A stretch of 64,000 nucleotides of DNA from the NCBI RefSeq assembly GCF_002265265.1, contig NZ_NOIF01000001.1, positions 1-64,000 on the forward strand. Direction: 5' to 3'. Made by a program: the position numbers and the translations under genes. Below are positions 7,039 to 27,600 of this stretch, piece by piece; the first letter of the stretch is position 1, and the number at the start of each line of letters is the position of its first letter. This DNA comes from Photobacterium sanguinicancri (lineage in GTDB: Bacteria; Pseudomonadota; Gammaproteobacteria; Enterobacterales; Vibrionaceae). The notes under the pieces are model-generated. The model ran no database searches and had not been told where the DNA came from. It was given only the letters and a program-made list of their open reading frames with translations.

Positions 7039-7521
7039 TTACTCTCCTTGTAAGACAGTGATCAGAATGTTGGCATTCTCAGGGACAGCCGTAATTGGCG
7101 CGTAGGCAATCCCATTAGGGTTTTGATTGAGCCACTCAAGAATGTCCTTAATATCATCGTTATTGAGTTCTGCTGGTGGTTTCCCTTTGCCAGAGAAAGA
7201 CAGTGATGCCCAGTATCCATTCATTTGTGATACTGACTTGCCTAAAAGCATGTCGTAAAACTCTTCTCTATGTATGGAGTTCTCTGGTAGATCAACCAGA
7301 ACGATTTTGATGCTGCCGTTTAGTTTTTTTGTTCTGCCTTTATATAGCATTCTTGCCTTGCTTTTACTGAGCTGAGGAATGTCTTTGTTCATTGAAAAAA
7401 CAGCAAACTCGACATCTTCGCTTGTCTTATTATTGGCAAATGCAGAAAGGGATAACCCAATGGAAAAGCTAGCAATTACGAGCTTCATCACAATAGGTTT
7501 TAGGTTGAGTCCGTTATTCAT
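7039..7521 (-). CDS. Small periplasmic phosphate-binding-protein-like protein
   Basis: The 160-residue protein has a signal peptide (hydrophobic from about residue 11, cleaved near AFA-NN) and a single-lobe PstS-like region: SKSKARMLYKGRTKKLNG, then IHREEFYDMLLGKS and a final NPNGIAYAP. Short phosphate-ABC-substrate-binding-like proteins of this size are common beside sensor kinases in Vibrionaceae and often lack their own permease, which is also the case here. It may bind a ligand and present it to the neighbouring sensor. Residue 12 is a second Met and a possible alternative start; neither has a strong ribosome site. Confidence 0.72.
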   Translation of the reverse strand: MNNGLNLKPIVMKLVIASFSIGLSLSAFANNKTSEDVEFAVFSMNKDIPQLSKSKARMLYKGRTKKLNGSIKIVLVDLPENSIHREEFYDMLLGKSVSQMNGYWASLSFSGKGKPPAELNNDDIKDILEWLNQNPNGIAYAPITAVPENANILITVLQGE

Positions 7522-7634: not shown

Positions 7635-10304
7635 ATGAGCCTTTTGAATCGGGTTTCGATTAAATCGAGATTGCTCGTTTTAGTCATTTTACCACTTGGT
7701 TTTATGACGATTTTTGCAGGATTAGAGATTCAAAGTCTCTATAAAAACGTTAATACGTTAAACATGCTTAATACGCGTGTCATGTTATTGAGTGAGGCTT
7801 CTTCCTTTTTGTCTGAAGCACATTTGGCAAAAATAAGTATGCAAAATGAGACATTGAGCCCAAATGACAATTCTATGTCGAACATCCTTAATGAAAAGGT
7901 CCAAAAAATACGCTTACTCATTCCAGATGCATTTACAGCACCAGAAGCAAAAAAAGCCAATGTGTTAATGGATGATTTAGCTGATGCTGTTTCGGAGTTT
8001 TCTGAGACGCAACAAGATGATTTACTCGATTGGTCGGCATGGATTGATGAGACCCTTAATGGCGTATTCACCAGTTTAGAAAAGTCACCACTGACAATTA
8101 ATAATAAAAAAGTGGAACAAAACCTTGGTGTTTTATACCAGCTCAACTGGTTATCTTTGTGGTCTCAACAAGAAAATTGGTTTATCCGCCAGTTGCTGCT
8201 AATGCCTGATATAGCCGAAGATATTAAACCTGAGCTCGTTAGTGTTATTCAAAATCAGCAACTTTATATTGATCGTTTTATCTCTATTAATGCCGACCCA
8301 CAGCAAATCGAATTGCTTAAAAAAACATTTTCAGATCCTGCTTTTGCTAATAGCTATATTTTACGGGAAGGCTTACTCGGTGGCGGCGTCTCTCAAGATG
8401 CGATTAGTGTCGGGCTGAAAGCTTTGGATGAACGCTATAACTTGATTCAATTCGTTGTTGGCGAAGTGAGTCAGCAGTTAGTGTCTGAAATTCATACAAC
8501 GATAGCCAGTGCTAAAGTGAAAACGGGTATTTTTACCAGCGCGATTTTACTGACTCTGCTTGTACTAAGTATTCTTGGGGTGAACCTAGCTAAGCGTATT
8601 ATTCAGTATTTAGGGCGCGTGATTAACACGATGTCGAGAATTGAAGAATCGACTGATGTCATGGTGAAGGTCGAAGAAGATGGGCGTGATGAATTCACTG
8701 TTTTTACCAAAAAACTGAATATTCTGATTGATGAGCGATACCATAACCAAGCTAAAATAGTGTTAGCAAAAGAGGAAGCTGAAAATGCCAATGTGGCGAA
8801 AAGTGCTTTTCTTGCCAATATGTCGCATGAAATTCGAACGCCGCTCAACGGCATCATTGGTATGTCATCAATACTGTCAGATACCGACCTTAATCCTTCC
8901 CAGTCTGAATACCTGCAAATTGTAGAAACCTCTTCACAAACCTTACTGTTGTTGATTAACGACATCTTGGATCTGTCTAAAATCGAATCGGGTAATCTGG
9001 TTATCGCACCGACGGAATGTAACGTGCGTGAGGTGGCTTACGATACTATGTCGATTGTGATGGCAAAAGCTTCTGAGCAGAATCTAGCATTGAAAGTCGA
9101 TATTGCCCCTGACGTTGCGGCATTAACCATGATAGATGAACACCGTTTACGTCAAATACTGATGAACTTAATGTCGAATGCCGTGAAGTTTACCTTATCG
9201 GGCTCGGTGACGTTATCGGTCACCCAGCAGATGAAAGACAACGGTCAAGCTGCTATTCGTTTTGCAATTATCGATACAGGCATTGGTATTGCGAAAGACA
9301 AGCAGGACCAAGTTTTTGCACCGTTTACGCAAGAAGATGGTTCGATCACTCGTCAGTTTGGCGGTACGGGCTTAGGGCTGGCGATCTGTCGTCAGCTTGT
9401 AGAGTTAATGGATGGCGACTTAGCGCTAGATTCTGAAAAAGGAAAAGGTAGTACTTTCTACTTCACTATTGATGTCGATATTGTAAAGGCACAAGCGCCG
9501 AAAGTAGCGAGTTTACAAAATGTGAAGACACTGTTAGTGACAAACGAAGTCGGTTACGCTGACGCATTGAAAAAGCAGTGTATAGAGCATGGCTTTTCCG
9601 TGGATGTTGAAACGGTCATGAGCAATGTAGATCGTTCTTCAAATTACTATGATTTGATCCTGTTCTGTCAGGGTTCTCTGATCCGCACTATAGATACCAT
9701 AGCTGAAATTAAAGCGGTGAAATCACCTGCCGCAGTCGTAGTATGTACCAGCCATAGCGACGAGCAGTATGATTTTGGTACTCACATTGATGGTGTGATT
9801 AGTGCGCCATTGTTTGGTCGCCGTTTAGTGAAAGCGACCAGTCAAGCATTGAAAAGAGTGCAAGAGCATCATAAGAAAATTCAAGCTTCACTTGGCGTTG
9901 TTCTTGATGAGGCCGTTAGCGTGAAAGATGTGGTGCTGGTGGTTGAAGATAACCTTGTTAATCAGAAAGTCGCATCACTCTTCTTGAAAAAGGCGGGCTA
10001 CGATTTTGAGTTAGCAAATAATGGTCAAGAGGCCGTCGATGCGATAACGCAAGGTAAGCAGTTTAAGGCCATTTTGATGGACTGCATGATGCCAGTAATG
10101 GATGGTTTCTCCGCAACAGAAGCCATTCGTGCTTGGGAAGGGCAAAACGAAAAATCTCGTTTGCCAATTATTGCGTTAACTGCGAGTGTACTCGACCAAG
10201 ATATTGATAAGTGTTTTGAAGCGGGCATGGATGATTATGTGGCTAAGCCATTCAAGAAAGAAGTCTTGTTAGATAAGCTCGATAAGCTTAACGAAGTAGC
10301 CTAG
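7635..10304 (+). CDS. Hybrid sensor histidine kinase with C-terminal receiver
   Basis: This 889-residue protein has a membrane helix at about residues 12-30, a mainly helical periplasmic region of about 260 residues, a second helix near 292-315, a HAMP-like linker, and a dimerisation domain with [12 protein letters not shown] (His398 as phospho-acceptor). The ATPase domain has [15 protein letters not shown] and GGTGLGL; a degenerate receiver-like segment (about 630-740) precedes a true receiver with Asp816 in [10 protein letters not shown]. The periplasmic part loosely resembles nitrate-sensor (NIT) domains but I am not sure. AAGGAG lies before the ATG. It is divergent from the porin/binding-protein pair, which may supply its signal. 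No output regulator is adjacent, so phosphate probably passes to an HPt protein elsewhere. Confidence 0.9.
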
Positions 10305-12059: not shown

Positions 12060-14201
12060 TTAGCTCTTAATGGTTTGGATTACCTTGTCTGGGAAACCAA
12101 AGTATTTTTGTGAACCATCATTATCGAGTAGCAAGCAGTTACTCGATGCTGCGATGTAAGACTTGTCGTTGGTCGTGAATATGACGGTCGCCTGCGCTAA
12201 CTTTTCCGTAAACAGTTTATTAATGTATTTTACGTACTCTTTTTCGCAACCGACAAACGGTTCATCGATGATGATCACCCCTTGATCACAACAACCCAGC
12301 CCCAGTGCTATCCGCAATAACTGTTGCACACCATTGGGTAGCTGCTCAACATATTCTGAGGTCATGTTGGTCTCAAGCCCTTGCGGTAACCAAGGGTGTA
12401 AATCGAAGAAATCGATAATTTCTTCCATCTGATGCCGCGCGATCACTCCATCATGAATAATGAAGTTAGATTCCAGCGTACCTTCAAAGATATGCAGTTT
12501 AAAAGGAATATAGTTAATTGCTTTACGATAGCGAAAGTTATTGAATTGCTTGATGTTATATCCATCAATTAACACATTTCCTTGATAACGTTCTTCAAGC
12601 CCAGCCAAGATACTCAGTAAGGTTGTTTTCCCTGAACCAGACATGCCAGATATCGATATTTTGTCGCCAGCAGGAATGGATAAAGCAAGGTTAGTGAGCC
12701 CTGTCGGTGAACCTTGATAGCGATGCGTCAGGCCGCTAACCGTAATATTGCCTTTAAATTGACGAATCGGTGGGCTATTTTCAAGCTGAGTACGATCATC
12801 ATTTAATGACATTAACGCATTGATTTGGGCGCTGGCAGCTTTAATCGTTTTGAATTTAGTAATGGCATTGTATATCCCCATAATTGGCCCAAGGGCTTTC
12901 CACACCAAAATAATGATTGCCAGCATCGCACCGGCGTCGGTTTTACCTGCCATCACACCGAGTACCGCGGTCACAATACTGGCGGTGCCTATGGCTTGAA
13001 TGAGTCCTTGTCCCATAGATTGAATTCTACCATTGGTGATCGATACACCTTTGGCATCTTCAAGGCTCTGATTGTGTGCCGCATGAAAGCGAGAGCGGAT
13101 CACCCGCAATAACGGTAAGCCTTGAATGGTACTGATACTACGCAGTAGCTCATTCCATTGGTAAGACACCATCGCATTCGCGCGCGAGCTTTTTGATGTG
13201 GCTTGGTTGTAGATATAGCGTGAGTACACACAAAATAGCAGCATGAGTACGATCCCCGCGAGTACTGTTAGCGCCGCAGATCCTGAGATAATCGTGATAG
13301 CTAAAATGAAGATAATCACAAAAGGCAAATCAAAGTAGCTAAGGGTTGATTCCGCGGTGACTAGCTTACGGAGTTGGTCGATATCTTTTAATCGAGCAAG
13401 CTGGGAAGAGACTCCGGCCGAAGAGGTCATAGAGTAGGGCAGCCAAAGCAACTTGCTGATGACATGTTTTGAGATGTGAGTGGCCAGATCTTTACCTGAT
13501 GTCGCCAATATATTCATCCGAAGTCGTTTAAAACCATACTCGGAAGCGGCTAAGAAAATCGCAAGAGCAGCAAGCCAAAATAACGTGGTTTCAGAGCCAG
13601 ATGTAAGCGCGAAACTGTATACGCCCATAATGAAAAAAGGCTGCATTGCACCAAGAATATTGATGATCAAGCTAAGGAGCATCAAGCTTTTCATTTCATT
13701 GTTATAGCGATAGAAAGCGTACTTAATCCAATTAGATTTATCTTGTGACTCTGGTGGCGGTTCGCGAAAAATCTTTGAATATTCGGAAATTTCGCACACG
13801 GCGCAGGTATCGTCTGTAAGAGTATGTTCAATTAAGACGTTGTTACGATAATCGAACAGCTTAGCTAATCCATTTTCGATGCCAAGGAAGATAGTACAGA
13901 CGTTATTGAACTCGACAAAAGCGGGCACGGAAATACGGCTCAATTCTGTCATCGATGTAAGCTGGCGTGTTTTACACTCGTAATCCAGCCGCGTTAAAGT
14001 ACTCGAAAAACTGTCTATGTCTTTGGCTTGGGGCACAAAGGCATCGGTTAGAATATCTGGTGTACCTTCCCACTGTAGCGTTATTAAGGTGTAGGCGATC
14101 CCTAAAATGGAGGGTGAGTTGTTATAACGTTTTTTAAATTTGGCAGAACCAAAATCGCTCAGCCGTTCTTCGGTATTGCTAAAATCAATCAATACACTCA
14201 T
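12060..14201 (-). CDS. Type I secretion ABC subunit with peptidase-like N-domain and eroded ATPase
   Basis: This 713-residue protein has a C39-peptidase-like N-terminal region (about 1-140) without a recognisable catalytic Cys-His pair, membrane helices (about 170-440), and an ATPase domain (about 485-710). This is the layout of LapB/HlyB-type exporters. Walker A (GMSGSGKTT, about 516-524) and Walker B with its Glu (GVIIIDEPF) are intact, but the signature reads QLPNGVQQ instead of LSGGQ and the H-loop His is replaced in FTTNDKS. It overlaps the previous ABC gene by four bases. The two probably form a heterodimer moving the giant protein encoded divergently. It is the last gene of a six-gene operon. 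Confidence 0.82.
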   Translation of the reverse strand: MSVLIDFSNTEERLSDFGSAKFKKRYNNSPSILGIAYTLITLQWEGTPDILTDAFVPQAKDIDSFSSTLTRLDYECKTRQLTSMTELSRISVPAFVEFNNVCTIFLGIENGLAKLFDYRNNVLIEHTLTDDTCAVCEISEYSKIFREPPPESQDKSNWIKYAFYRYNNEMKSLMLLSLIINILGAMQPFFIMGVYSFALTSGSETTLFWLAALAIFLAASEYGFKRLRMNILATSGKDLATHISKHVISKLLWLPYSMTSSAGVSSQLARLKDIDQLRKLVTAESTLSYFDLPFVIIFILAITIISGSAALTVLAGIVLMLLFCVYSRYIYNQATSKSSRANAMVSYQWNELLRSISTIQGLPLLRVIRSRFHAAHNQSLEDAKGVSITNGRIQSMGQGLIQAIGTASIVTAVLGVMAGKTDAGAMLAIIILVWKALGPIMGIYNAITKFKTIKAASAQINALMSLNDDRTQLENSPPIRQFKGNITVSGLTHRYQGSPTGLTNLALSIPAGDKISISGMSGSGKTTLLSILAGLEERYQGNVLIDGYNIKQFNNFRYRKAINYIPFKLHIFEGTLESNFIIHDGVIARHQMEEIIDFFDLHPWLPQGLETNMTSEYVEQLPNGVQQLLRIALGLGCCDQGVIIIDEPFVGCEKEYVKYINKLFTEKLAQATVIFTTNDKSYIAASSNCLLLDNDGSQKYFGFPDKVIQTIKS

Positions 14202-15901
14202 GCGGCGACCTTCTTATCAAATTTATGTTTAACCAAACGAGTGTCGAGTTGACCGAGCTTGTTGCTGACAATTATACAAATAAAGTTGTTTGATTTTGGG
14301 GCGATACAGGCCAGTAACAATCGGCCAAATTTTTCGTCATACACCATGTCGATATCATCGATCATTAAGACTGACTTATTACTTAGTAGTGCTCGCACGA
14401 TCAGTAGCGCGAATAAAACCTGCCGCGAAAAAGGCAACTGTGATTGGCTAGATATTTGAGTATAAAAGCCATTTTTGAGGCCATTAATTTTGTCTTTAAT
14501 GGCGAGGTTTTCACACAATGCAAAAGCCGCGTTATTGAGGTGAGATTGAAAACACGTCAGGTTGTCGATGATGGAGCCTTCCACCAGTGAGGTATTCTTA
14601 TCGACTTTAATAATGTGATTACGCCATGTGGTGTACTCAATACTTTCAAATGCTTGCTGATTAACCTCAATCTGAAAACAATCGTCGTGTGTGTCACGGG
14701 TTAAACAGCGCAGCAAGTGACTCTTACCACTGCCGCTGGGCCCTGTTAGCAAATGAATGTATCCAGTTGCCAGTGTTAGCTGATTGGGTACATACGCTGT
14801 GTTATTAACTGTGATAGCTGCAATGGGCTGTTTACCCGCAAAAAGCGTATCAGTGTTTGAAGGTGTGAGTGTTTGCTCACGGTTCTGGTTTTGTGCTGAG
14901 CAAGACACTTGTGATGAAATTGGTGCTTGTGGTGAAAGGTGGCTTTGAGGGAGAGTGCGCGCAGATTCTAACGCTAACAATTCCGCAATACGCGTAATGT
15001 TGAGTTGATTAACACGCCAGCGGCTTAGGGTACGCATGACTTGTTGGTAAGGGGCAAAATAACGGTTGGTCAGCAAGATAACTGCCGCCATTACCCCTTG
15101 GCTAATTTCTAGGTTGATAACTGCACGGGCGCACAATACAACCACGATAGCCACGGAGAGCTGCTGAATAAGGTTGAGAGTCAGATTAAAAGACGATTCG
15201 AGGCGTTCATACGCAATACTTTGGGTTTCGCGTTCGCTAATCATCTCGACCATCACACTTTCGACACGATACTCCATAGTACGGCTTTTGATATCGAGCG
15301 GATTAGAGACAATTTCGATGATTTTTGAATTGGTCAGTCCTTCTATATCTGAACGCTGAGATAAGATCTCGACCCTTCTTTTCGCTAAATAACGTGCAGC
15401 AATCAATAAAATGGTCGATGCCAGTATTAAGGCAATCCCTGCCCACATATTGATGAGGAAAATGATCAAGATAGTTATGGCACTGGTACCACCGTTGATC
15501 ATTGCTTTAATCGATTCACCACCAAAGAATTGTTTAATGTCTGGGATCGTAGCGATCCGCTCTAAGTATTCCCCCATTTCCAAGCGATTAAAACGCTCGA
15601 TATTGGCGGAACAAATAGCCATGAAAACGCGGTTGGTTAACTGGCTTTCAAAGCGTTTCATTATCACTGATACCAAATGTTCTTCTTGGCGTTTTAATTG
15701 GTAGTCCAGGAAAATAGCGGTGAGAATAATCCCAAACAACAGCATAAGCGAATGGGTGGATTGATTCGGTAAAATACGGTCAAAAATGATCAGAATAGAG
15801 AACGGCAACACCAGCCCAAGCAGGGTTGTCATTATGGTAGAGAAAACCAAATACAGCTTATCTAGCGGGCTGATTTTTCGTGTAAATAAAGGATTTTTCA
15901 T
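14198..15901 (-). CDS. Type I secretion ABC subunit, second half, degenerate ATPase
   Basis: The 567-residue protein has an ABC exporter membrane domain (about 15-310) and a nucleotide domain (about 355-560). There is no peptidase-like N-domain. Walker A (GPSGSGKSH, about 385-393) is present, but the signature region reads SQLPFSRQVLFA, the Walker B catalytic Glu is Asp (LMIDDIDM) and no H-loop His is visible (IIVSNKL). An interrupted linker rich in Ser and Gln (about 315-350) separates the domains. The start lies 11 bases after the TolC stop. With its partner it would make one asymmetric exporter; on its own it is probably a poor ATPase. Confidence 0.8.
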   Translation of the reverse strand: MKNPLFTRKISPLDKLYLVFSTIMTTLLGLVLPFSILIIFDRILPNQSTHSLMLLFGIILTAIFLDYQLKRQEEHLVSVIMKRFESQLTNRVFMAICSANIERFNRLEMGEYLERIATIPDIKQFFGGESIKAMINGGTSAITILIIFLINMWAGIALILASTILLIAARYLAKRRVEILSQRSDIEGLTNSKIIEIVSNPLDIKSRTMEYRVESVMVEMISERETQSIAYERLESSFNLTLNLIQQLSVAIVVVLCARAVINLEISQGVMAAVILLTNRYFAPYQQVMRTLSRWRVNQLNITRIAELLALESARTLPQSHLSPQAPISSQVSCSAQNQNREQTLTPSNTDTLFAGKQPIAAITVNNTAYVPNQLTLATGYIHLLTGPSGSGKSHLLRCLTRDTHDDCFQIEVNQQAFESIEYTTWRNHIIKVDKNTSLVEGSIIDNLTCFQSHLNNAAFALCENLAIKDKINGLKNGFYTQISSQSQLPFSRQVLFALLIVRALLSNKSVLMIDDIDMVYDEKFGRLLLACIAPKSNNFICIIVSNKLGQLDTRLVKHKFDKKVAA

Positions 15902-15912
15902 GCGTTATTCCT

Positions 15913-17361
15913 TTATTGAGCCAAGAGGTGAAGAGGAATTGGCGAATCGGTTTTGCTGTCACTCGCAGGAGACATTTGTGCTGCAATCTTGCCTATGGTG
16001 TTCATGTTTAAATTGCCAATTAATTCGTTAAGTTGCACTAAGCTGATGATGTAATCGTAACGAGCGTTTTCGTAATCTCTAATGCTACTGAAAAGCTTAC
16101 TCTCGGCGGATAGCAAGTCAGTTATGGTGCGAGTCCCGAGTTTATGTGCTTTCTGAATACCTTTATATGAGGCGTAATTGGCTTGAATGATGGTTGTGAG
16201 GCTGCGTAGCGAAGCTGAGTAATCATTAATGTCGTAAATAAAGGTATCAAATGATTGTTGGCTTTGTTGCTTACTGTCTTGTAGGTCAATTTCAGCGCGT
16301 TCGATATTGACCTTATTTTGTTCATAACGGTAATAGTCTTTGCCACCATTAAAAATGGGCACGTCCAAGGTTAGGGTGTAAACCGCTTCTTCAGTGGTGC
16401 CGTTATTGGGAAACACATTGGCTGACGCATCGTTGGTGTTGTCGTAGGTATAACCCACGCTGCCTTTTAATGACGGTGCAAAGGTTGCCCCTGTTTCCTT
16501 TAATGACTGGCGATTTCTTTTTACCTCTTGTTGGGCAATCAGTAAGTTGTAGCCCGAGGTGTACATGATCTCGTTAAGCTGACGTTGGCGAGTGAGCGAT
16601 ATTTCATTGAATTGAATCGTCGACTGTAAATCGTGGTCAGGGTTTAGCGGTTGTTGAACAATATTTTCAAGCTTAGTTAAGATGACACGCTGTTCTTTTT
16701 TTAAGCTGCGCAGGGTATTTGCATTTTTTTCTTTTTGCGCCATGACTTCATATTTTTCGGTTCCTGCTACATTGCCTAGCTCGACATTACGGGTAATAAA
16801 CGTGAGCCGAGCAGCTGAAGAATCAAATTCAGCTTGGGTGGCACGGATTTGCGCATTGTTCTTCAGATACTCAAAGTAGGTGGTTGAGGCATCACGAATA
16901 ATGGATTGACGGGTTTGTTCTGTACGTAGTGTTTCGGTATCCACACTCACCTGAGTACTGGCTTGCGAATAAAGATCACCAAGGTCAAAAATGGTTTGCG
17001 ATAGCGTCACATTGACGCCGTGATTATTGTAGCGGTTATTGGCATCGCTGCCTGTTTCTTGGTGGGTCGAACTATCGTTCCATCGTGTATTGGCAGACAA
17101 GCCGAGCGACGGTAAAAACTTCCCTCGGTTAATGTCGAGGTTATATTCAGATGATTTAAGGCGTGTTTCAGCACTGCTTAGTGACAGGTTCTGTTTTAAT
17201 GCTGTATCTACGACTTCAAGCAAATTGGCGGCTTGTACGTACGAAGATAGTCCTCCTCCGAATAATGAGAGGCTAACAATGGCGCAGGAAACGGCTGTTG
17301 AGACGCTAACAGATTTTCTTAATGGCCATGTATTTTTTAATAACTTTGATGATTTCATCAT
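15913..17361 (-). CDS. TolC-family outer-membrane channel of the type I system
   Basis: The frame is open up to 17481, but the first 40 codons lie over the end of the upstream gene and look non-native. I place the start at the MM pair at 17361/17358, giving about 482 residues with a signal peptide (basic start, hydrophobic run, cut near YVQA-AN). The rest shows the two long coiled-coil repeats of TolC proteins, with NLLEVVDTALKQNLSL at the start and ENARYDYIISLVQLNELIG at the end. It would span the outer membrane and dock with the HlyD adaptor encoded two genes upstream. No strong ribosome site is seen, so coupling to the upstream gene is likely. Confidence 0.83.
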   Translation of the reverse strand: MMKSSKLLKNTWPLRKSVSVSTAVSCAIVSLSLFGGGLSSYVQAANLLEVVDTALKQNLSLSSAETRLKSSEYNLDINRGKFLPSLGLSANTRWNDSSTHQETGSDANNRYNNHGVNVTLSQTIFDLGDLYSQASTQVSVDTETLRTEQTRQSIIRDASTTYFEYLKNNAQIRATQAEFDSSAARLTFITRNVELGNVAGTEKYEVMAQKEKNANTLRSLKKEQRVILTKLENIVQQPLNPDHDLQSTIQFNEISLTRQRQLNEIMYTSGYNLLIAQQEVKRNRQSLKETGATFAPSLKGSVGYTYDNTNDASANVFPNNGTTEEAVYTLTLDVPIFNGGKDYYRYEQNKVNIERAEIDLQDSKQQSQQSFDTFIYDINDYSASLRSLTTIIQANYASYKGIQKAHKLGTRTITDLLSAESKLFSSIRDYENARYDYIISLVQLNELIGNLNMNTIGKIAAQMSPASDSKTDSPIPLHLLAQ

Positions 17362-19579
17362 TTTTGTACGGCTTACTGATGACATAGTCCATCCCTGCTT
17401 CAATACATGACTTGTGTTCACTCGCACTGGTAAGTGCTGTTGCGCCAATGATGGTGGCGGGTTGCTGAATGTCCATTTCATCTTCCCGTTGGCGTATCAA
17501 TTTGGTGGCTTCAATACCGCCCATGCCAGGCATGATGCAATCCATAAAGACAATGTCTGCACCTTGCTCTTTCATGTACTCAACAGCTTGAGCTCCATCA
17601 CTGACGGTATGAGCGTCATACCCTTGCTTGCTTAATAGTTTCTTCAATAAGAACTGCTGAACACGGTCATCTTCAACAATCAGGAAGGCGTTTCGAGTTT
17701 GCACATCCGCTTCTTCAGCGGCTTGCATGGCTTCGGTTAAATTAGGGATAAGCTCGTATGGGATCAGTGGTGTGTAGAACACGCGATCAACATATTCGTG
17801 GGTGTCTTGAACCGTACTGGATTCGGAAGCCGCTAAGAAGAGTTTGGTTTTCGCGGCTTTTTTCAGGCGAGAATGCAGGGTTTTACAGAAAGACTTAAGT
17901 TGAATGCCCTTGAGTGTATCGGTAATGATGATGGCATCGTATTCACCAATAGTGGGTAATGATTTAAAAATATCATTAGCGGCCCGTACGACAGTCACGC
18001 TTGCCCCATATTGATCGAGCATACGCGACATAATATCGATTTGTAGCGGTGAGTCGGTACAAACCATGACACGTTTATTTTCAAGTAAGCGATCTACACG
18101 ATAGAAACTTTTTGGCGTGATATCGATACCGATATGCAGCTTTTGAAAAGGCGACAAAGGAGAGCTATCGCTATCGGCGGTTGATGATAGTACTGGCGAT
18201 GGCGCTTGAAACCACGAGGACTTAAAGTGATTAACCTTTGTTAGAATAGCTTTTGACCACTCATCGTTAATGCCACTTTTTCCATCAACGGCTTCCCACT
18301 GTGCTTCCTGAATTTCAGTTAGACCAACAGCATTGGTCGGCAAAAAGATAATTTCAAATACCAAGCGCGTTTGTTCGACTTCTTCTGCGGCCTCGGTGCG
18401 AATGTTCAATAGGAGGTATTTATCGCTTTGCGCTGAAATAGCATTAGAAAGCTGAAGGAAAAGTACCCAGAACAAGCTGGTGGCATTGCCCTCGATGACT
18501 TCGGGTAAATTATCGTGCAAACGGCACTCAAAGGTACGTTGAGAGTGTTGCGTTTTAGCCGTGAGGTGGACAATTAATTCAGACATAAATGGCAAGAAAT
18601 TTACGTTGCCCGTTTGTGCTTGATTACCACCTGAAATAAGGCGGTTATAGTTATCGGCTAAATCCGACAGTGTATTGGTGGCGAGGGTAATATCGCGTGC
18701 CATTACTGCGCCATTTTCACCTGCATCTTGGGCGATTAAACGCACACCACCTTGAATGGTATTGGTCATACCGCGAATTTCATAACCGATTAAGGCATAA
18801 AGTTGGCGGTATAAATCGGCATTACGCTTTTGAAATTCTACGTCTTGGTACATAGAGGCCAAGTTGGCAAAAATACGCCGTTCTGTCGGTGTGGTATCCA
18901 GGTTATTGAGTTTTGCTTGAATGCCTTGGGCATCGATATTTTCCAGCTGAGTCGCAAGTTGGCTAATATCGTACTGAGATTGCGTTGTGTGATGCCCTGA
19001 ATATTGAGGACGCTGTTGGCGTATAAGAAAGAGTAAACCTAGCGCCGTGATAATGGATAGCGCAAAGATGAACAGTGCTTGATGAAATAACTGCTGCTGT
19101 TGGGATAGATAGCCAGATTCTACAATAGTGATTAAGTTTTGGTGTGCCAGTTGTAGGGTGGTGTAGCTTGTTAGCAACGATCGTTGTAACTGTGTGGTAT
19201 CGCCAACGGCTGTAAAGCGATCTAGGGTGACCGCTAATTGCGGATACACAACATCACCGACAAGGCTGATCTTTGACTTTTCAGCAGCGGCTAAGTGGGT
19301 AAAGGTTGTAATCTGCTGCTGTAATGCCGAGATTAAATCTGCCATTGGTGCTTGTGTTGGAGAGCATGCTTGTTCTTTACATGCTAAAGATGCGTGCAGT
19401 AATAACTCGGTTTTGTTGATTAAGCTTGCTGATTCAATCAGTAGTGGGGATTGTGTTATTGCGCTATGTTTTGCGTCACTATTATTGATCCAGCGCCAGC
19501 CAATAAAGGCTTGCGATATGACAAAGCCAACCAATAAAGCGATAGAAAAACGCGTGATGTTTTTTTTTGCTATTTTCAC
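17306..19579 (-). CDS. Pseudo-histidine-kinase with C-terminal receiver, in the secretion operon
   Basis: The 757-residue protein has membrane helices at about 10-27 and 168-187 around a helical periplasmic region, then a dimerisation-like helix in which the usual [10 protein letters not shown] reads GYEIRGMTNT: Tyr266 stands where the phospho-acceptor His should be. The following ATPase-like region keeps an N-box-like LQLSNAI but has no DxGxG or GxGLG motifs. A degenerate receiver (about 500-610) is followed by an intact receiver with VEDD and Asp680 in MDCIMPGMGG. It therefore cannot autophosphorylate by the normal route and probably receives phosphate from an HPt protein; one is encoded two genes upstream. 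Its start is six bases after the HlyD stop. Confidence 0.8.
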   Translation of the reverse strand: MKIAKKNITRFSIALLVGFVISQAFIGWRWINNSDAKHSAITQSPLLIESASLINKTELLLHASLACKEQACSPTQAPMADLISALQQQITTFTHLAAAEKSKISLVGDVVYPQLAVTLDRFTAVGDTTQLQRSLLTSYTTLQLAHQNLITIVESGYLSQQQQLFHQALFIFALSIITALGLLFLIRQQRPQYSGHHTTQSQYDISQLATQLENIDAQGIQAKLNNLDTTPTERRIFANLASMYQDVEFQKRNADLYRQLYALIGYEIRGMTNTIQGGVRLIAQDAGENGAVMARDITLATNTLSDLADNYNRLISGGNQAQTGNVNFLPFMSELIVHLTAKTQHSQRTFECRLHDNLPEVIEGNATSLFWVLFLQLSNAISAQSDKYLLLNIRTEAAEEVEQTRLVFEIIFLPTNAVGLTEIQEAQWEAVDGKSGINDEWSKAILTKVNHFKSSWFQAPSPVLSSTADSDSSPLSPFQKLHIGIDITPKSFYRVDRLLENKRVMVCTDSPLQIDIMSRMLDQYGASVTVVRAANDIFKSLPTIGEYDAIIITDTLKGIQLKSFCKTLHSRLKKAAKTKLFLAASESSTVQDTHEYVDRVFYTPLIPYELIPNLTEAMQAAEEADVQTRNAFLIVEDDRVQQFLLKKLLSKQGYDAHTVSDGAQAVEYMKEQGADIVFMDCIMPGMGGIEATKLIRQREDEMDIQQPATIIGATALTSASEHKSCIEAGMDYVISKPYKNDEIIKVIKKYMAIKKIC

Positions 19580-19585
19580 TTGGTA

Positions 19586-20923
19586 TTACCTCTCATCAAA
19601 TGCGTCTTCCATCGCGCTCATTACAGGTTTTAGCGCATAATCAATGACGTAGCGTGAACCTGTTTTGATATCGGCTGTAAATTCCATATACGGTGACAAG
19701 GTGTATGTAGCGCCTGATTTTTCAAGGAAGTTTTGCTGAATCGAAATTTTGGCAATATAGAATTCGTTTTCTTCTTCTTTGTACGAAGATCGGCTAATGG
19801 AGTCGATTGTGCCGGTAACAAAGCCATACTTCGCAAAATTATACGTATCAAACTTTAGCTTCACCTCTTGACCTATTTCGACAAAACCCATGTCTTTTTT
19901 CGGTATTTTGGCTTCACCATGTAAGCTGTTTCGGATAGGGGCAATGTCGGCAATACTTTCGTTAGGCGGGATCACCGCGGATTTAAAGTTGAAATGCACT
20001 TTATCGACTACGCCATCGACGGGCGAATAAACCGTTAGACGATCCACTTTATCGGCATGCTGAGGCAGTTGCGCTTGTTTGAGTGAGCGATCTTTTTCAA
20101 GCTGATTAATTTGCGTTTGGTAGCCCGCATTACGGTTTGCGATAGTATCGTTCAGTTGTTTTTCTAATCTTGTTGACTGAAATTGCTCGCTCATTACCGC
20201 TTCACTGAGGTTTTCTATCTCACGGATCATGTTGGTTTCTTGTACTTGCATGTTCAATACATCGACATACGAGGCCATTTCTTCTTTATATAGCGTTTCT
20301 TTGATGGATAGCTGTTTGCGAATTAAACCCAGTTGTTTACGTGAGCTGTTAATACGCTTTTTCATGGAGCCAATTAAGCGTTGCTTGTGCTTGATATCCA
20401 GCGCGATGAGTTCTTGATTTGAGGTGTTTTTTTGGAACTCTTTTTGCCACGATTCTGTTTGTTGAGTAACGAGTTGTGGGTAAACGGAAAAGCGAGAATA
20501 ATCCGGTTTGGTTTGATTGATCAGCCCTTGGTAGCGGGCGATTTCCATTTCTAATCCGATGATATCAATGGTTGCCGATTGAAATTGTGTTGCACGATCA
20601 ACGGATTTTAAGCGTGCAATAGGCTGCCCTGCATACACATAATCACCTGCTTGGACGAGTAGGGTATCTAAAATACCGCCTTCTAAATGTTGAACACGTT
20701 CGATATCAGAATCGAGTAGCATCTCACCACGCGATGAAACCACAATGTCAATTTGTGCACGTGAAGCTAAGGCAATCAGCAATAACAGAGCAATGAACAA
20801 GAAGAGCAATGATTTATGCACTGTTGTCATTGCGCTTTGAATATAAATTGAATGATCAGTTTCAACACCGTCGTTTTGCTTCGATTCAATCAATGCTTTC
20901 TTTATGTGGTTCTCGATGCCCAT
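19586..20923 (-). CDS. HlyD-family membrane-fusion (adaptor) protein
   Basis: This 445-residue protein has a short cytoplasmic start, one membrane helix (about 37-57), a biotinyl/lipoyl-like half-motif (VQHLEGGILDTLLVQAGDYV), a long coiled coil (about 110-290), the second half-motif (TVYSPVDGVVDKVHF), and a beta-rich C-terminal domain. This is the standard layout of HlyD adaptors, which link the inner-membrane ABC exporter to TolC. It lies 56 bases after the HPt gene and just before the kinase-like gene. Its cargo is most likely the giant repeat protein encoded divergently. Confidence 0.92.
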   Translation of the reverse strand: MGIENHIKKALIESKQNDGVETDHSIYIQSAMTTVHKSLLFLFIALLLLIALASRAQIDIVVSSRGEMLLDSDIERVQHLEGGILDTLLVQAGDYVYAGQPIARLKSVDRATQFQSATIDIIGLEMEIARYQGLINQTKPDYSRFSVYPQLVTQQTESWQKEFQKNTSNQELIALDIKHKQRLIGSMKKRINSSRKQLGLIRKQLSIKETLYKEEMASYVDVLNMQVQETNMIREIENLSEAVMSEQFQSTRLEKQLNDTIANRNAGYQTQINQLEKDRSLKQAQLPQHADKVDRLTVYSPVDGVVDKVHFNFKSAVIPPNESIADIAPIRNSLHGEAKIPKKDMGFVEIGQEVKLKFDTYNFAKYGFVTGTIDSISRSSYKEEENEFYIAKISIQQNFLEKSGATYTLSPYMEFTADIKTGSRYVIDYALKPVMSAMEDAFDER

Positions 20924-20979
20924 CGCAATAGCTCCTTAATTACGCTGAGTGGTATTGGGGCAGTTAAGAGCCAATATCG

Positions 20980-21312
20980 TTAATTCGTCAGGGCGTGGGT
21001 GGCTATTTGCTGGTTTACTTTGACCATTTCATTTAGGACAGCATTGATTAGCTCTGCACTGGGTTTTTCTCCGCGCTTGCACAGGCGTTCAATGGTTTCA
21101 AATTGTTCACTGGCGCTTTCTTCACATAATGTCAGTAACACACCTTTTAGTGAGTGCACGGTATGAAACAGACCGTCAATATCGCTGCTGGCGTATTTAT
21201 CCTTAATCACTTGAATGTCATTACCGTGTTCTTCGTTGTACAGCTCAATGATCATCGACATCATGTCGTCATCGCCATCCATTGCGTCGCTAAAAGCTTC
21301 AAAATTAATCAT
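20980..21312 (-). CDS. HPt (histidine phosphotransfer) protein
   Basis: The 110-residue all-helical protein carries the HPt motif FHTVHSLKGV with His53 as phosphate carrier. It begins with INFEAFSDAMDGDDDMMSMIIELY, which fits the first two helices of a four-helix bundle. It is the first gene of the secretion operon. Its likely partner is the receiver (Asp680) of the kinase-like protein in the same operon. Since that protein lacks a phospho-acceptor His, the HPt would have to be charged by another hybrid kinase; the one at 7635-10304 is a candidate by proximity only. Confidence 0.88.
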   Translation of the reverse strand: MINFEAFSDAMDGDDDMMSMIIELYNEEHGNDIQVIKDKYASSDIDGLFHTVHSLKGVLLTLCEESASEQFETIERLCKRGEKPSAELINAVLNEMVKVNQQIATHALTN

Positions 21313-21620
21313 TGCGTTGTTCCTTTCCTTTTCTTTTACTCAAGCTATTGAGAGATAACAGGGTTTCCTCTACTCATAATGTATGGTCTAGCTTTGGCTA
21401 TATTTCAAGGCAAGTTCTGTGGTTGCATTATCATTTATTGATCAATATCTCATCTCTGTGAGTGTTGTTTTTTTGACAGTAAGTGTGCGTAACTTCTAGC
21501 TTTTGTTATTTATTTGGCTTTTGGTGTTTAGATATTTGCTAAAGCAATAAGGGTGTTCTTAATTTTATAAAGAGAAACTTACTTTGTATGCGAACACTGA
21601 CATGAGCACGGAGGCCAGTG
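21313..21620. promoter_or_regulatory. Divergent promoter region of the secretion operon and its presumed cargo
   Basis: The 308 bp AT-rich gap must carry promoters for the six-gene operon on the minus strand and the giant gene on the plus strand, so one regulator could control both. GGAGG is seen at 21610-21614 before the giant gene. I could not identify a specific operator. Confidence 0.5.
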
Positions 21621-24600
21621 ATGGCAAAGAACAAGCATCAAGACAAGCATGACGCGAAAGACAACACACTCAATGATGCGGTTGAACACAATGCGACGCC
21701 AGATGAAAGCAGCGATGAACACCGTGCTCAGGACAGGCAAAATCAGCAAAGTACCATGGCGTCTACAACGGCAACGGGGGCGGAATCAGCCGATCAAAAT
21801 ACCCAAGCAAACATGGCTTCTGATGATGGAGCTGGTGCCGCTAAACAGAGTGGTCGAAGTGGACAGCGTCGCGCACAAGAGAGCCAGTCAAAAGATGAAG
21901 ACCCAAGCGGGCCGCGCAGTGGTGACAATCAAGGTGAAACGCCAGCGTTAGATAATGGCCGAGATGGTGAAGAGATTGGTGGTGGCGGTGGAGTGGGAGC
22001 GCAGGCTGTTGGAGGTGGTAGTTCACGTGGTGAACGTGCGAAGAGTGATGAATCATCAGCAGAACAAAATCAAGCCTCGCAACAAGGTGCAGATCAACAG
22101 TCGGGGGCGGGAGGTGGCGTAAGTCCTGCCGCTGCAGAATCGAAGGCCGAAGATTTTGATACGGCAACCACCAGTGAAACCTTCCAAGTTGATGTTGCCA
22201 ATGCACAAACCAAAGAGCTTGCCGTTGAAGACGATTTTGATACTGAAACCGTCTCGCAAACCTTCGAAATTCAAGTTGAGAATGTGAATGATGCGGCGGT
22301 GGTGACTGATACCCTCATTGACGGTACAGAAGACACTAGCATTACCTTCACCCAAGAAATGTTGCTTGAAAATGCCACTGACATTGATAGTGATCAGCTG
22401 ACTGCGGTGAATCTGAGTATTGATCCCGCGTTTGGTGACGTCGTTGATAATAAAGATGGCACATTTACTTTCACACCAGCCGATGATTACAACGGTGAGG
22501 TGCCATTTACCCTCGATGTGGATGACAACGATGGCGCAGTGACCCCAGCTGCTGGCAAGGTCGATCTTGCCGCCGTCAATGATGCCGCCACAGTGTCAGA
22601 GACTGTGATTGAGGGTGAAGAAGATAATACGGTTCACTTCACGCAAGCGATGCTGCTGCAAAATGCATCGGATGTCGATAGTACAAATCTGACTGCACTA
22701 AATCTCCAGATTGATGAGCAATACGGTAGCTTAGTTGATAATAAAGATGGCACCTTTACCTTTACGCCAACTGAAGATTACAACGGTGATGTACCTTTCA
22801 CTTTTGATGTTGACGATAACGACGGTGCTGTTACCTCGGCAACGGGCAACGTTAACCTTGCTGCGGTTAATGACGCACCAGTATTGGCTGAAACTTCGTA
22901 TGTAGTGAATGAAGATGGCTCGATTAAAATTACCGAAGCCTCTTTGATCGATAATGCCACAGATGTTGATGGCGATGCGTTATCTGTCGTTAAGATCACC
23001 ACAGATGAAAACGGCCACATAGAGCAAAACGTCGACGGTGATTGGATCTATACGCCTAACCCAGATTATAGCGGTGATGCCAACCTCACCATAGTGATTA
23101 ACGATGGCACCGTTGATGCTGAGTTTACGGCACCAGTGACCATCACCCCTGATGCCGATGAACCTTCGTTAACGGTGTCGTTAACCGATATGACGTTAGT
23201 GGAGTATGGGCAAGGGCATGATAGTGCACTAACAGGCTGGCATACCGACAACGCCAACAATGCGATCGAAATCCACCAAGATTATGTCTACGGTGTGGGG
23301 GATAACCGTGGCGGCGTGATTGAGTTGGAAGCCAATCGTGGTGATGAATCGAATTTATATACGACACTCGATGTTAAAGCGGGTGACGTTGTCACGTTAG
23401 AGTTCGATATGTCTGCTCGCTTGCATTATGAAGGAACAGACTCTCAGGTCGATGTGTACTTTGAAGGGCAGCTTGTTGATACCTTGATTGAAGATGATGC
23501 GGGTTGGCATCACCATAGTTATCAATTTACCGCGACAGAAGATAACCCTCGATTAGAATTTGATTCGCCAGACGACAATAGTTTGGGGGGCTTGTTGGAT
23601 GCGATCAGCATAGAAAAAGTGATCAGCGAAGATCAAGCTGTGCCGATTAACCTCGATGCTTCACTAACCGATACTGACGGCTCTGAATCTTTACAATCAT
23701 TGGTGATCGACGGCTTGCCTGATGGCGCAACGCTAACTGACGGTGTGAATACCTTTACGGCTAGTGAAGATGGTGATAGCACCGATGTGGCTGGGTGGGA
23801 TGTAAGCCAACTGATATTCCAAGGTGCAGAACACTTTAATGGCGATGTTGCATTAACTATTTCTGCTACCTCTGTCGAAAGCAGTACCTTGCAAACGGAT
23901 TCGCCTGAAACGGCAACTACCACGACGACGCTTGATTTTCATGTTACAGCGGTGAACGATCCCGTTGTTATTGATGAAAATAGCCCACTGCAATTCAATA
24001 CCCTCGAAGACAGTGAAATTATCATCACTGAAGCAGCATTACTGGCCAATGCGAGTGATGCTGATGGTGATAACCTAATGGTGACTAACCTTCAGGTTGA
24101 TAATGCCAGCTTCAAAACGGTGATAGACAGCGAAACAGGTGATAAATCTTTCGTTGTTACGCCAAATACTGATGTGAATGGTGATTTGTCGATCAGCTTT
24201 AATGTCAGTGATGACAACGGCAGCGTGGTGTCATCGGATGCGAGTTTGGTCGTTGCCGCGGTGAACGATGCTGCCAAGGTAGATGACCAAGCCTTCACCA
24301 TGAATGAAGATGGCTCGTTAACCTTTACAGATAAGGATTTGTTAGCAGGAGCGACAGACGTTGATGGTGATGATCTAACGGTTGAGTCGGTGAATTATAA
24401 CGGCGCTGATGGTGTCTTTACTGATCATGGCAACGGCAGCTATACCTTTGCCCCTAACGAGAACTTTAACGGTGAGGTGGATTTAAGCTTTGCTGTGAAT
24501 GACGGCACCATTTCTACGCCTGCCAATATCGATATTACCGTCGATGCGGTTAATGATATCCCTGTGGCAGGGATGACGACTTATTCGGTTGATGAAGACG

Positions 24601-27600
24601 GTATTTTAACCTTCAATGACAAACAACTACTAGCCAACAGCAGTGATGTCGAAGGTGGGGTCAGTATCGCTGACGTGAGTTATAGCGGCGAAGATGGCAT
24701 CCTGACAAATCATGGCGATGGCAGTTATTCGTTTGCACCCAATGCCAATTTTGATGGTGACGTTGCGATTGATGTGACCGTCAAAGATGAAGAAGGGGCA
24801 ACGGCGACAACAACGGCGAATGTTGATGTACTGGCGATAAACGACAGCCCCGTAGTCAGCAGCAATGTTGCTTATAGTGTGAATGAAGATGGTTCTATCA
24901 CTTTAAGCCAAGCGCAGCTTTTAATGCATACCACAGATATTGATAGCAGCGAAACCTTAGTGGCAGAGAACCTACAGCTAGAGGCCTTTGGTCAGGTCAC
25001 TGCGAACGAAGATGGATCATTTACGATCGTACCAGCGGAGAACTTTAATGGCGATTTAGATCTAACCTTTGACGTAACCGATGGTGAATACACGGTTTCG
25101 ACAGGCTTAGATCTAACAGTCAACCCAGTCAATGATCCTGTGGTGGCGAAAGATGATGATCGCCTAGATGGCTCAGACCCTATGATCCGCCTAGATGCAG
25201 CCCCTGAGCATGGCTCGGTACAGTATCAAACTGAAGAGGGTGATTGGGCTGATATGGTTGTTGGCATTGAATATCCAGCCGGTACCCAAGTGCAGTTCAC
25301 GCCCAATACCGAAGAAATCCAAGCTGATACCCGCGATATTCGTATTGGTAGCTTTGATAGCAATACCGATACCAACGTTTTTGATGGCAAAGCCAAAGTA
25401 GAAGATTGGGGGACTGTCGATGGTGATACCGCTGTTTATCAAGAAGATGGTGTGACTGTTACCACTCAAGTGAATACAGGTGAATTAGCCGCATGGAATG
25501 GTGCGGGTAGCCATGTGGGTGCTGGAATCGGTAATGAAAGCCGCCAAGGGTTAGATACTAATGAATTGCTGACAGTGACGGTCGAAGGGGAAGATGTAAA
25601 CCAAATTACTTTCCAATTAGATGGTCTTGGTGGCTATTTTGATGAAACCAGTCGTCATGCAACCGAAGTGATGATTAAAGCCTATGATTCTGATGGCAAT
25701 ATCATAGATGCACAAGGGGGCTATCGCGAGTCGGGTGAATACCAAGATGAATACGTATTTACCACAGATGTGCCAGTGCATCACTTTACGCTAGGGACAA
25801 CAGGCAGTAATGGCACCTATGTGGTGCAGAATATGACGGTGTCTCGTACTATGTCTGAAGAGATTCAGATGACGACGATCCAACCCGATGGCAGTGAAGT
25901 GACACATGCCATGAATTTGGATCTGAATTACAGTACCGCAGATCAAACGCTGGATGTGACCGATCAGCTTGTTGAAGTCAAAGAAGGCATTCATTCACGC
26001 GCCATTGAAGTTGAAGAAGATGGCCAGTTGGTGATCGATCCCGCTGATCTCTTACTGAATGATACTGATGTAGATGGTGATACCTTAACAATCGTAGGGG
26101 TTGAAGCGACAGATGATACTCACGGTAAGGTACATCTTGATGAAGATGGTAATGTCGTCTTTACACCAGAACCTGATTACAACGGTCCAGCCTCGTTCAC
26201 CTATACCGTCTCTGATGGTAATGGCTCGACAGATACAGCGACAGTGTCTGTTGACGTCACTCCGGTTGAAGACGAACCTGTTGCACCTAACTTGAGCTTC
26301 AATGTCGATGAAGATCAAGTGCTAGTGATAGACCCTGCTTATATCCTCAAACAAGCCAGCGATGCTGACGGTGACAAACTGACGTTAGAAGATCTGTCAT
26401 TAAAACAGCCGCCTAATGGTCAATTACAGCTTCAGCAAGATGGGATGTACCACCTTATTACGCCGCCTGATTTTAATGGTTTAATTGAGCTAAATTACAC
26501 CGTTTCTGATGGCGATGATAAAACCGAAGGCGCAATGAAGGTGGATGTGCTGCCTGTTAATGATGCGCCATTTAGCAGCGGTAACGCTCACCTAACGACC
26601 CATGAAGATGGTGCTTTTACCTTTAATGCTAACGATATGCTGGATCTGTTTGGTGATATTGACGGCGATGATCTGGTGATCTCGCGCATTATTACAGCCG
26701 AAGGGGAAGACGGTGGGAAGGTTGATGAAAATGAAGATGGCAGTTGGACCTTTACCCCAGCAGAGGATTATTCAGGCACAGCTGAGCTGCAAGTTGAAGT
26801 AAAAGACCCTGATGGTTTAACCACCATGTTAGAGATGCCTGTTTATGTGCGTCCTGTCGCTGACGGCGCGGTGATCACGACGGATCATCAAGGCCCACTT
26901 GTTTTTGACGAAGATTCCTCGGGTTTACTTGGCTTAAATGTTGAGATGATCGACGCGTCGGAACAACTGAGCCACTTAGTCATAACTGGCTTCCCTGTCG
27001 GGTTTGAAGTGTCTGATGGCGTGAATACCATAGTGATTACAGAAGAAAACCAAGTGCTTGATGTCACAACATGGAGCATGGACGACTTATCACTTACTCC
27101 GCCTCAAGACTTTACAGGCAGCTTCTTTATCACAGTATCAGCGACAACGGCCGATTATGGTGAAGAGTCCTCCAGCCAGGTCTCGCAACCAACCGAGTCG
27201 TATGCTGATTTTGATGCCACAGCAGGTGACACCTTGGTGCTATCCATGGCTGATTTACTGGCTATGGCTGAGGGTATAGAAGCGGGTAAAGGAGATGAGG
27301 TTGAGGGCGTTCATTTAATTGATCGCAGCCAGGGCGAGCTGGTGGATAACAATGATGGTACTTGGTCATTTACACCTGCTGAAGGCTTTACGGGGGATGT
27401 CGATTTTGCCTATCAGGTGATAAATGATGGCAATACGATTGATGTGCAAAGCACTATCGCTGTAGCGGAGCAAAAAGAGGCTGAACCAAACAAAGATGAG
27501 GGAGGAAAAGGGCAAGATAATGAATCACCACGGGTAGATAGTATCGCCACAACAGAGCTTGATGTAGGCAATACCTTAACCTTTGATGACCGAGATCTAT

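Follow-up and report, generated by a model that had tools for sequence, protein, structure and literature searches.

A pseudo-histidine kinase conserved within a type I secretion operon of Vibrionaceae may link a phosphorelay to the exporter

I analyzed a stretch of 64,000 nucleotides from Photobacterium sanguinicancri (positions 1 to 64,000 of contig NZ_NOIF01000001.1, assembly GCF_002265265.1; hereafter the window), in which a gene for a kinase-like membrane protein lies inside a type I secretion operon. The minus-strand cluster has the order of a histidine phosphotransfer (HPt) protein, an HlyD-type membrane fusion protein, the kinase-like protein, a TolC-type outer membrane channel, and two ABC transporters (ABC2 and ABC1), and a giant gene is divergent from it. 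The type I assignment is based on the fact that HlyD, TolC, and an ABC transporter are encoded together in a conserved gene order. By its sequence, the kinase-like protein, here called pHK for pseudo-histidine kinase, is a conserved pseudokinase with an intact terminal receiver and the architecture of a hybrid kinase. Since 76 genomes share pHK and ABC1, pHK appears to be a component of this secretion system and not a chance neighbor. The best explanation as a whole is that HPt-fed phosphorylation of Asp680 (D680) sets the state of this partner of the secretion machine, and I hold it tentatively, at slightly less than an even chance. Direct control of secretion as the output is its least certain part.

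The loss of the kinase residues is a family trait. A total of 83 loci were gathered (42 genome contigs, 40 Vibrionaceae genomes, and the window), which gave 67 non-redundant pHK sequences at 99.5% identity, the window protein included; L061-L064 were left out of the family as receiver-only matches. The initial annotation had described a Tyr in place of the phospho-acceptor His, missing ATPase G-boxes, and a retained Asp in the last receiver, and this was confirmed. Residue 266 is Tyr in 66 sequences, Phe in one (the Oleiphilaceae sequence L055), and His in none. Thus, a local mutation, which homologs with an intact His would have indicated according to the same annotation, is ruled out. Glu267 and Arg269 are invariant. 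The canonical first Asn of the N-box is missing in 67/67 sequences, the 13 sequences whose G1 and G2 regions were inspected showed no DxGxG or GxGLGL, and neither HisKA nor HATPase matched pHK in Pfam at E ≤ 0.01. The only Pfam match is the last receiver (Response_reg, residues 633-747, E = 2.7e-27), in which D637/D638 are kept in 67/67 sequences, D680 in 66/66 readable ones, and K736 in 65/65 readable ones, with Thr or Ser at position 717 in 64/66 readable ones. In the window, the codons of Tyr266 and Asp680 lie at 18784-18782 and 17542-17540, respectively, by arithmetic from the start of the open reading frame (ORF). The conservation pattern of Tyr266 and D680 is far beyond chance, and, judged from the alignment, the catalytic loss is ancestral and fixed in the pHK family. 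The median ratio of nonsynonymous to synonymous differences (pN/pS) of pHK was 0.044 (31 pairs from 15 Vibrio loci), and pHK is therefore under strong purifying selection.

It was confirmed that the pHK gene lies between the HlyD and TolC genes and encodes a membrane protein of kinase architecture, as first annotated. Two hydrophobic segments (TM1, residues about 8-31, and TM2, about 164-189) flank a presumed periplasmic region (about 32-163). In the latter, C67, C72, F93, K101, S105, and G108 are kept in at least 90% of 28 sequences, and this conserved region with its two cysteines could touch HlyD. The cytoplasmic part consists of a DHp-like region, a CA-like region without ATP boxes, a pseudo-receiver (about 500-622), and the receiver (630-750), in this order. 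The first of the two receivers, on which the initial annotation was silent, is degenerate; its acid pair and Lys are gone, and Asp554 is kept in 67/67 sequences. In a profile-profile alignment, the pHK family was collinear with the family of an intact hybrid histidine kinase encoded in the same window (hyHK) over 464 columns (Prob 99.8, E = 9.9e-30), and Tyr266 of pHK was paired with the catalytic His398 of hyHK (GYEIRG versus SHEIRT). The last receiver supplies most of the score. Without it, the alignment is weak (Prob 33, E = 4.6e-4), with the register unchanged. An AlphaFold model of pHK had a mean pLDDT of 80 and a pTM of 0.46, so its domain arrangement is unreliable. For the whole model, the best Foldseek match was ShkA (6qrj, E = 1.7e-19, TMt 0.43), the kinase region of RetS came lower (E = 6e-7), and the VIA-align listing covered the terminal receiver alone.

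HlyD, pHK, TolC, and ABC2 occur together in 83/83 loci, with some of the ORFs broken, and ABC1 is present in 82 loci, the 83rd of which runs off its contig. Among 329 Vibrionaceae genomes, pHK was found in 77 (E ≤ 1e-25), ABC1 in 77 (E ≤ 1e-140), and both in 76. A single genome (G036) has ABC1 only, and a single genome (G482) has pHK only. The cluster of G482 is decayed, and G452 has a split pHK gene (loci L139 and L140). Such decayed and split copies suggest that the system is lost at times. In a phylum sample, the pHK profile matched 4/398 genomes, all of them Vibrionaceae and the window's genome among them. Beyond Vibrionaceae, pHK was found in four Shewanella loci, one Oleiphilaceae metagenome-assembled genome (MAG), and one Micavibrio MAG. 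In a tree of pHK sequences, the nearest named relatives of the window protein are those of P. profundum, P. frigidiphilum, and P. indicum.

The genome with ABC1 only, a Photobacterium, has a second, rearranged system (L138:7794-19899) in the order of a GNAT-like gene, ABC2, ABC1, HlyD, a pHK homolog, and a giant gene downstream. No TolC gene was found in the 20 kb read of this system. Its proteins are distant from their counterparts, with identities of 29% for ABC2, 39% for ABC1, 35% for HlyD, and 24% for the pHK homolog. The homolog, encoded beside HlyD, likewise has Tyr instead of His in its H-box (FLGYEIHALTSIV), and its receiver Asp is retained. Its reading of GYEIH at 24% identity in a rearranged system also contradicts a local mutation. 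When the dead core of this homolog was used as a query, 69/329 genomes matched at E ≤ 1e-12, namely itself and 68 others, and in all 68 the match fell on the pHK gene rather than on an ordinary kinase. The window pHK scores just E = 1.1e-9 with this query, and in a class sample 1/369 genomes matched, which is the window's own.

Of the six-gene order that the initial annotation wished to see elsewhere, the part from HlyD to ABC1 recurs as described above, and the HPt at the operon head varies. In the window, the operon does start with an HPt bearing His53, as annotated. In the 67 non-redundant loci, the slot before HlyD holds a His-bearing HPt in 20, a pseudo-HPt in 28 (with Lys in 24, Tyr in 2, Ser in 1, and Asn in 1 at the His place), and none that was found in 19, four of which are broken loci (L048, L054, L056, and L116). 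The operon-head HPt thus cannot be the universal phosphate donor, and on this point the initial annotation is not supported in its original form. The His is kept in Photobacterium, Shewanella, the A. sifiae type, genus g222, and Oleiphilaceae. The history of the HPt was read from a quick maximum-likelihood tree of 63 pHKs, which left out the four broken loci and came with long-branch warnings. In this tree, one clade of Vibrio and A. fischeri (39 rows, 28 pseudo and 11 none; SH-aLRT 97) contains all slots that lack an intact HPt, except L100, L101, L110, and L059. Since the deep branches keep the His, it was probably lost once, and the genes were probably deleted several times. In L110 and L059, the slot is empty and an intact HPt is found elsewhere in the locus; in L105 and L107, the slot is pseudo and an intact HPt follows ABC1.

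The pseudo-HPt is, by its median pN/pS of 0.106 (31 pairs), still under purifying selection. A model of the V. owensii pseudo-HPt (pLDDT 89.5) matched 3myf in VIA-align with a Z of 15.3 and an rmsd of 2.1 over 112 aligned residues, and the first 13 structure rows were HPts. The Foldseek match was weak (E = 0.096), and the pseudo-HPt assignment rests on the alignment and the VIA-align Z. Thus, the pseudo-HPt is predicted to keep the HPt fold, and the operon's HPt seems to have decayed in one clade to a partner that cannot be phosphorylated and yet is maintained by selection. This suggests that binding without transfer matters too, for example as a brake on transfer from an intact HPt.

Is the relay dead in the Vibrio clade? 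This possibility was ruled out, because 28/29 genomes and a plasmid have another HPt, with the His present in 12/12 genomes read. An intact-HPt profile, to which two of the genomes (G533 and G573) had supplied rows, was searched against 29 genomes with a dead or absent slot HPt. An HPt was counted as stand-alone when its frame was no longer than 130 aa and its match reached E ≤ 1e-20, a cut-off that was fixed after seeing the lists. The profile matched 29/29 genomes, and the best match was stand-alone in 28/29; the exception, G501, has only a short frame at E = 2.9e-17. A stand-alone HPt was found in 2/16 genomes without pHK (G117 and G383), and G009 narrowly misses the cut-off at 2.4e-19. The difference between 28/29 and 2/16 gives a Fisher p of 1.0e-8, with the cut-off post hoc and ancestry uncorrected. 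In six pHK-positive genomes with an intact slot HPt, the slot gene was the sole stand-alone match past the cut-off. The stand-alone HPt lies within 35 kb of the exporter in 16/29 genomes.

The whole cluster was also found on a conjugative plasmid of V. coralliilyticus, pSNUTY2 (CP020456.1, 4139-24042; L236), in the order of giant, pseudo-HPt, HlyD, pHK, TolC, ABC2, ABC1, a REC-TPR protein, and intact HPt. By eye, the pseudo-HPt has Arg at the His place. The plasmid pHK has Tyr at the H-box and an intact receiver, and the intact HPt has the motif AHTLKG (Pfam Hpt, E = 3.4e-6). The existing annotation gives only hemolysin D, response regulator, ABC transporter, and hypothetical proteins. In Vibrio sp. 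SCSIO 43135 (L026), ABC1, REC-TPR, a His-bearing HPt, and a hybrid kinase are consecutive. These two arrangements are the best evidence that an intact HPt belongs to the system, also in places where the operon copy is dead or lacking. REC-TPR as a specific partner of pHK was ruled out, since it is present in 13/13 genomes, three of which lack pHK.

In three V. splendidus-type genomes read, the stand-alone HPt is located past the end of the giant gene, whose complete copies encode 5453-7365 aa. Between the two are a small gene and a gene for an RpoS-like sigma factor, and REC-TPR is on the other side of the HPt. On the same flank, A. fischeri G451 has an EAL protein, an RpoS-like sigma factor, an intact hybrid kinase, REC-TPR, and HPt. 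By gene order, this flank appears to resemble the rpoQ-pdeV / VF_A1016 region of V. fischeri ES114. Quorum sensing through LitR is described to activate both sides of that region, and loss of the kinase VF_A1016 to give more biofilm (PMC12369385). Counting against the match, the neighboring regulator VF_A1017 is described there with a DNA-binding domain (PMC12369385). In A. salmonicida, the rpoQ locus with its four response-regulator genes and 14 nearby genes are described as up at high cell density (PMC6420764).

Other neighborhoods of the intact HPt were observed. A small family of about 104-139 aa follows ABC1 in many Vibrio loci (L028:17415-17783, L052:17419-17769), and the three members scanned had no Pfam match above the cut-off; relatives also lie beside an RpoS-like sigma factor and an intact HPt (L181:10258-10614). 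In five loci (L189, L190, L191, L193, and L197, of the V. mediterranei type and two others), the intact HPt is in a separate cluster with a hybrid kinase of about 570 aa and a protein of 179-184 aa, which is presumably H-NOX-like. Four of the five also have a gene that looks like a sigma factor.

For the kinase that would charge the HPt, hyHK, which the initial annotation did not mention either, is a candidate phosphate donor. Its relatives in the loci keep SHE[IL]R[TA]PLN and GTGLGL in 33/33 cases. Of the genomes tested, 18/18 with pHK and 5/11 without it have a relative of the hyHK sensor region (Fisher p = 0.001, ancestry uncorrected). By slot type, hyHK is present in the flank of 3/20 loci with an intact HPt, 20/26 with a pseudo-HPt, and 3/19 with none. 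As a fixed operon member, hyHK was ruled out by this flank count (26/65) and by its distance of about 10 kb from ABC1 in a genome of the same species.

From these sequences, I infer the phosphotransfer and its partners as follows. pHK would be a dedicated regulatory partner of the type I secretion system, descended from a hybrid histidine kinase that lost its autokinase activity and kept a last receiver that can be phosphorylated. Another hybrid kinase, for example hyHK, would charge a small HPt protein, and the phosphorylated HPt would in turn phosphorylate D680 of pHK. The phosphorylation would alter the pHK dimer, acting through the two membrane helices and the periplasmic domain. pHK would thereby set how the HlyD/ABC/TolC machine exporting the giant surface protein assembles, opens, or releases its substrate. 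A phosphate input to the exporter partner is proposed because catalysis is lost, the receiver is kept, the exporter is always present, and an HPt is nearly always present. Direct gating is plausible. A more general form, possible and rather doubtful in my judgment, is that pHK is a phosphate-switched subunit, that is, an ex-hybrid-kinase receiver that has become the obligatory partner of a heterodimeric-ABC exporter. Export of the giant protein would then be gated by any relay that charges the right HPt. As the plasmid suggests, the module can move with its own HPt.

Several points weigh against this scheme. Biochemical or genetic data were found for no member of the pHK family. Linkage alone also fits an expression regulator or a secretion sensor, and the contact between pHK and the exporter is putative. 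The co-occurrence tests carry no correction for shared ancestry. hyHK lies within the flank of about 5-8 kb beyond ABC1 in only 26 of the 65 non-redundant loci with enough flank, and some of the 18 matches to its sensor region are just 25-28% identical. For as many as 13/29 stand-alone HPts, the exporter is not encoded within 35 kb, with six of these HPts on other draft contigs, and an unlinked HPt pairs with pHK only statistically. A linked HPt usually adjoins REC-TPR, which may be its real target, and the two pHK-less genomes own a stand-alone HPt as well.

The alternative that survives best, though I regard it as unlikely, reverses the direction. The periplasmic domain of pHK would sense exporter flux or a stalled substrate and report to the phosphorelay via the HPt phosphate. 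Expression of the giant gene would thereby be matched to export capacity, for which the nearest precedent, by analogy, would be Bce-type modules. The two transmembrane helices with the conserved periplasmic residues fit this direction, as does the location of pHK inside the exporter operon in 83/83 loci. In the three V. splendidus-type genomes, an RpoS-like sigma factor and REC-TPR accompany the intact HPt past the end of the giant gene, which would be consistent with such a feedback. The BceAB-S chain 8g3a_D was among the Foldseek matches of the pHK model (E = 6e-7, TMt 0.32), but this match may reflect shared kinase parts only. However, a pure sensor is expected to retain kinase or phosphatase chemistry, and pHK has neither the His nor the ATP boxes. 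I consider the direction from signal to exporter roughly twice as probable as that from exporter to signal.

It is improbable that pHK acts like RetS, with its DHp-like helices pairing with an intact hybrid kinase and inhibiting it, so that its role would be in the signaling network and not at the exporter. When the dead-core profile was compared with solved structures, the top three were 7n0e (a histidine kinase by name), 6dk7, and 6dk8 (both RetS) at E of about 0.006, where the RetS match is weak and spans about 110 residues. In favor of such pairing, conservation in 25-residue blocks, the last receiver aside, is highest at the pseudo H-box (251-275), and the architecture of pHK is collinear with that of hyHK. 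However, pHK tracks the exporter (76 genomes) more than the kinase (26/65 loci), and no hybrid kinase was found in the 18 annotated genes of the pSNUTY2 stretch, whose gene table is known to be incomplete. Finally, that pHK is an exporter assembly factor whose receiver docks the HPt or pseudo-HPt with no need of phosphorylation is about as improbable: the slot HPts without His (28/67) do stay under purifying selection with a predicted HPt fold, and binding without phosphotransfer is probably useful, but the two acids, Asp680, and Lys736 are invariant even in the pseudo-HPt clade, and docking alone needs none of them.

The features of the locus are listed in Table 1. The listed TolC ORF overlaps the 3′ end of the pHK gene; the true start of TolC is uncertain and may lie downstream. 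In its Walker B motif, ABC2 has an Asp where ABC1 has the catalytic Glu, and the exporter may thus be a heterodimer in which one ATP site is weak.

Table 1. Genes of the secretion locus and its flanks in the window
Feature	Position	Strand	Remarks
HPt protein	20980-21312	minus	His53 in HSLKG, codon 21156-21154; Pfam Hpt, E = 5.8e-8
HlyD-type membrane fusion protein	19586-20923	minus	TIGR01843, 285.9 bits, over cut-off
pHK (pseudo-histidine kinase)	17306-19579	minus	757 aa, GTG start, between HlyD and TolC
TolC-type outer membrane channel	15913-17481	minus	type I model match, below curated cut-off
ABC2, shorter ABC transporter	14198-15901	minus	567 aa; Walker B VLMIDD
ABC1	12060-14201	minus	713 aa; closest to LssB type I model, below cut-off; Walker B VIIIDE
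Giant cadherin-like protein, presumed substrate	21618-28694	plus, divergent	2358 aa; 13 cadherin-like/tandem-95 repeats
hyHK, intact hybrid histidine kinase	7635-10304	plus	His398, N and G boxes, terminal receiver Asp816
Porin-like gene	5996-7036	minus	relatives accompany hyHK in many Vibrio/Aliivibrio loci
160-aa protein gene	7039-7521	minus	relatives accompany hyHK in many Vibrio/Aliivibrio loci

For the giant protein of the window, no RTX-repeat model was among the listed matches. It shares with the giants of the other genera examined a low-complexity N-terminus with an LNDAVE-like start, and a DW(T/M)...MDDS C-terminus was read by eye in 11/11 giants with a printed end. These shared termini may be an unusual export signal. 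Elsewhere in the window, the minus strand has a pair of very large ORFs at 43922-58647, which overlap each other (1582 and 3347 aa). No match to GGDEF, EAL, or peptidase C93 was found in 18 scanned window proteins, the entire operon included, and LapG-family proteases are encoded elsewhere in 7/7 genomes tested, the window's genome among these.

Compared with known systems, pHK resembles DivL as a repurposed kinase chassis with Tyr for His. In DivL, Tyr is described to replace the phospho-acceptor His in nearly all homologs, and the protein to have no kinase or phosphatase activity (PMC4211667). In contrast, the receiver that DivL reads is a protein of its own, DivK~P, and the target of DivL in cell-fate control is the hybrid kinase CckA, while pHK has its own intact receiver, no ATP boxes, and a tie to a secretion operon. 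DivL is a PAS-DHp-CA protein; no PAS domain matched pHK, which has a transmembrane-periplasmic region and two receivers instead. ShkA, the best structural match to the whole pHK model, is an active hybrid kinase with two tandem receivers, the first of which is a pseudo-receiver; pHK, in contrast, is not predicted to be an active kinase. RetS, which was among the top matches of the dead core, is a kinase-like protein whose probable mode of action is to pair with another kinase, and it is not known inside a type I operon.

LapD is a catalytically dead membrane receptor of cyclic di-GMP (c-di-GMP) that acts post-translationally on a type I-secreted giant adhesin. The initial annotation put it too strongly in stating that the genes of type I operons are normally all for transport, since Lap-type systems pair the exporter with LapD. 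The difference is that LapD binds c-di-GMP, while pHK has a phospho-receiver and its operon has no LapG gene. In V. fischeri, c-di-GMP is described to control the surface display of LapV (PMC12369385). In BceAB-S, a two-component kinase is described to work in complex with an ABC transporter (PMC10314905). The O-Island 28 type I/RTX cluster of E. coli is a chromosomal type I adhesin cluster described as under two-component control, and the five genes named for it code for transport and for adhesins, none of them kinase-like (PMC12758282).

Among the matches listed in the open-access PubMed Central literature, no description of a pseudokinase or an HPt inside a type I operon was found, which is a weak negative. 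The Bce kinases are active ones, which serve antimicrobial peptide resistance in Gram-positive bacteria and involve no type I exporter. Each part of the system thus has a precedent (DivL, ShkA, LapD, or Bce), and a description of the combination was not found among those matches. About one in four of the tested Vibrionaceae genomes (77/329) has pHK, and so do Shewanella and an Oleiphilaceae genome. The protein would stand in a series of pseudo-enzymes in which the kinase, the first receiver, and, in one clade, the HPt each lost catalysis, and the final receiver stayed intact. Post-translational control of type I export is known mainly through the c-di-GMP receptor LapD. If the proposed scheme is true, the pHK family would be a second solution to this control, based on phosphotransfer.

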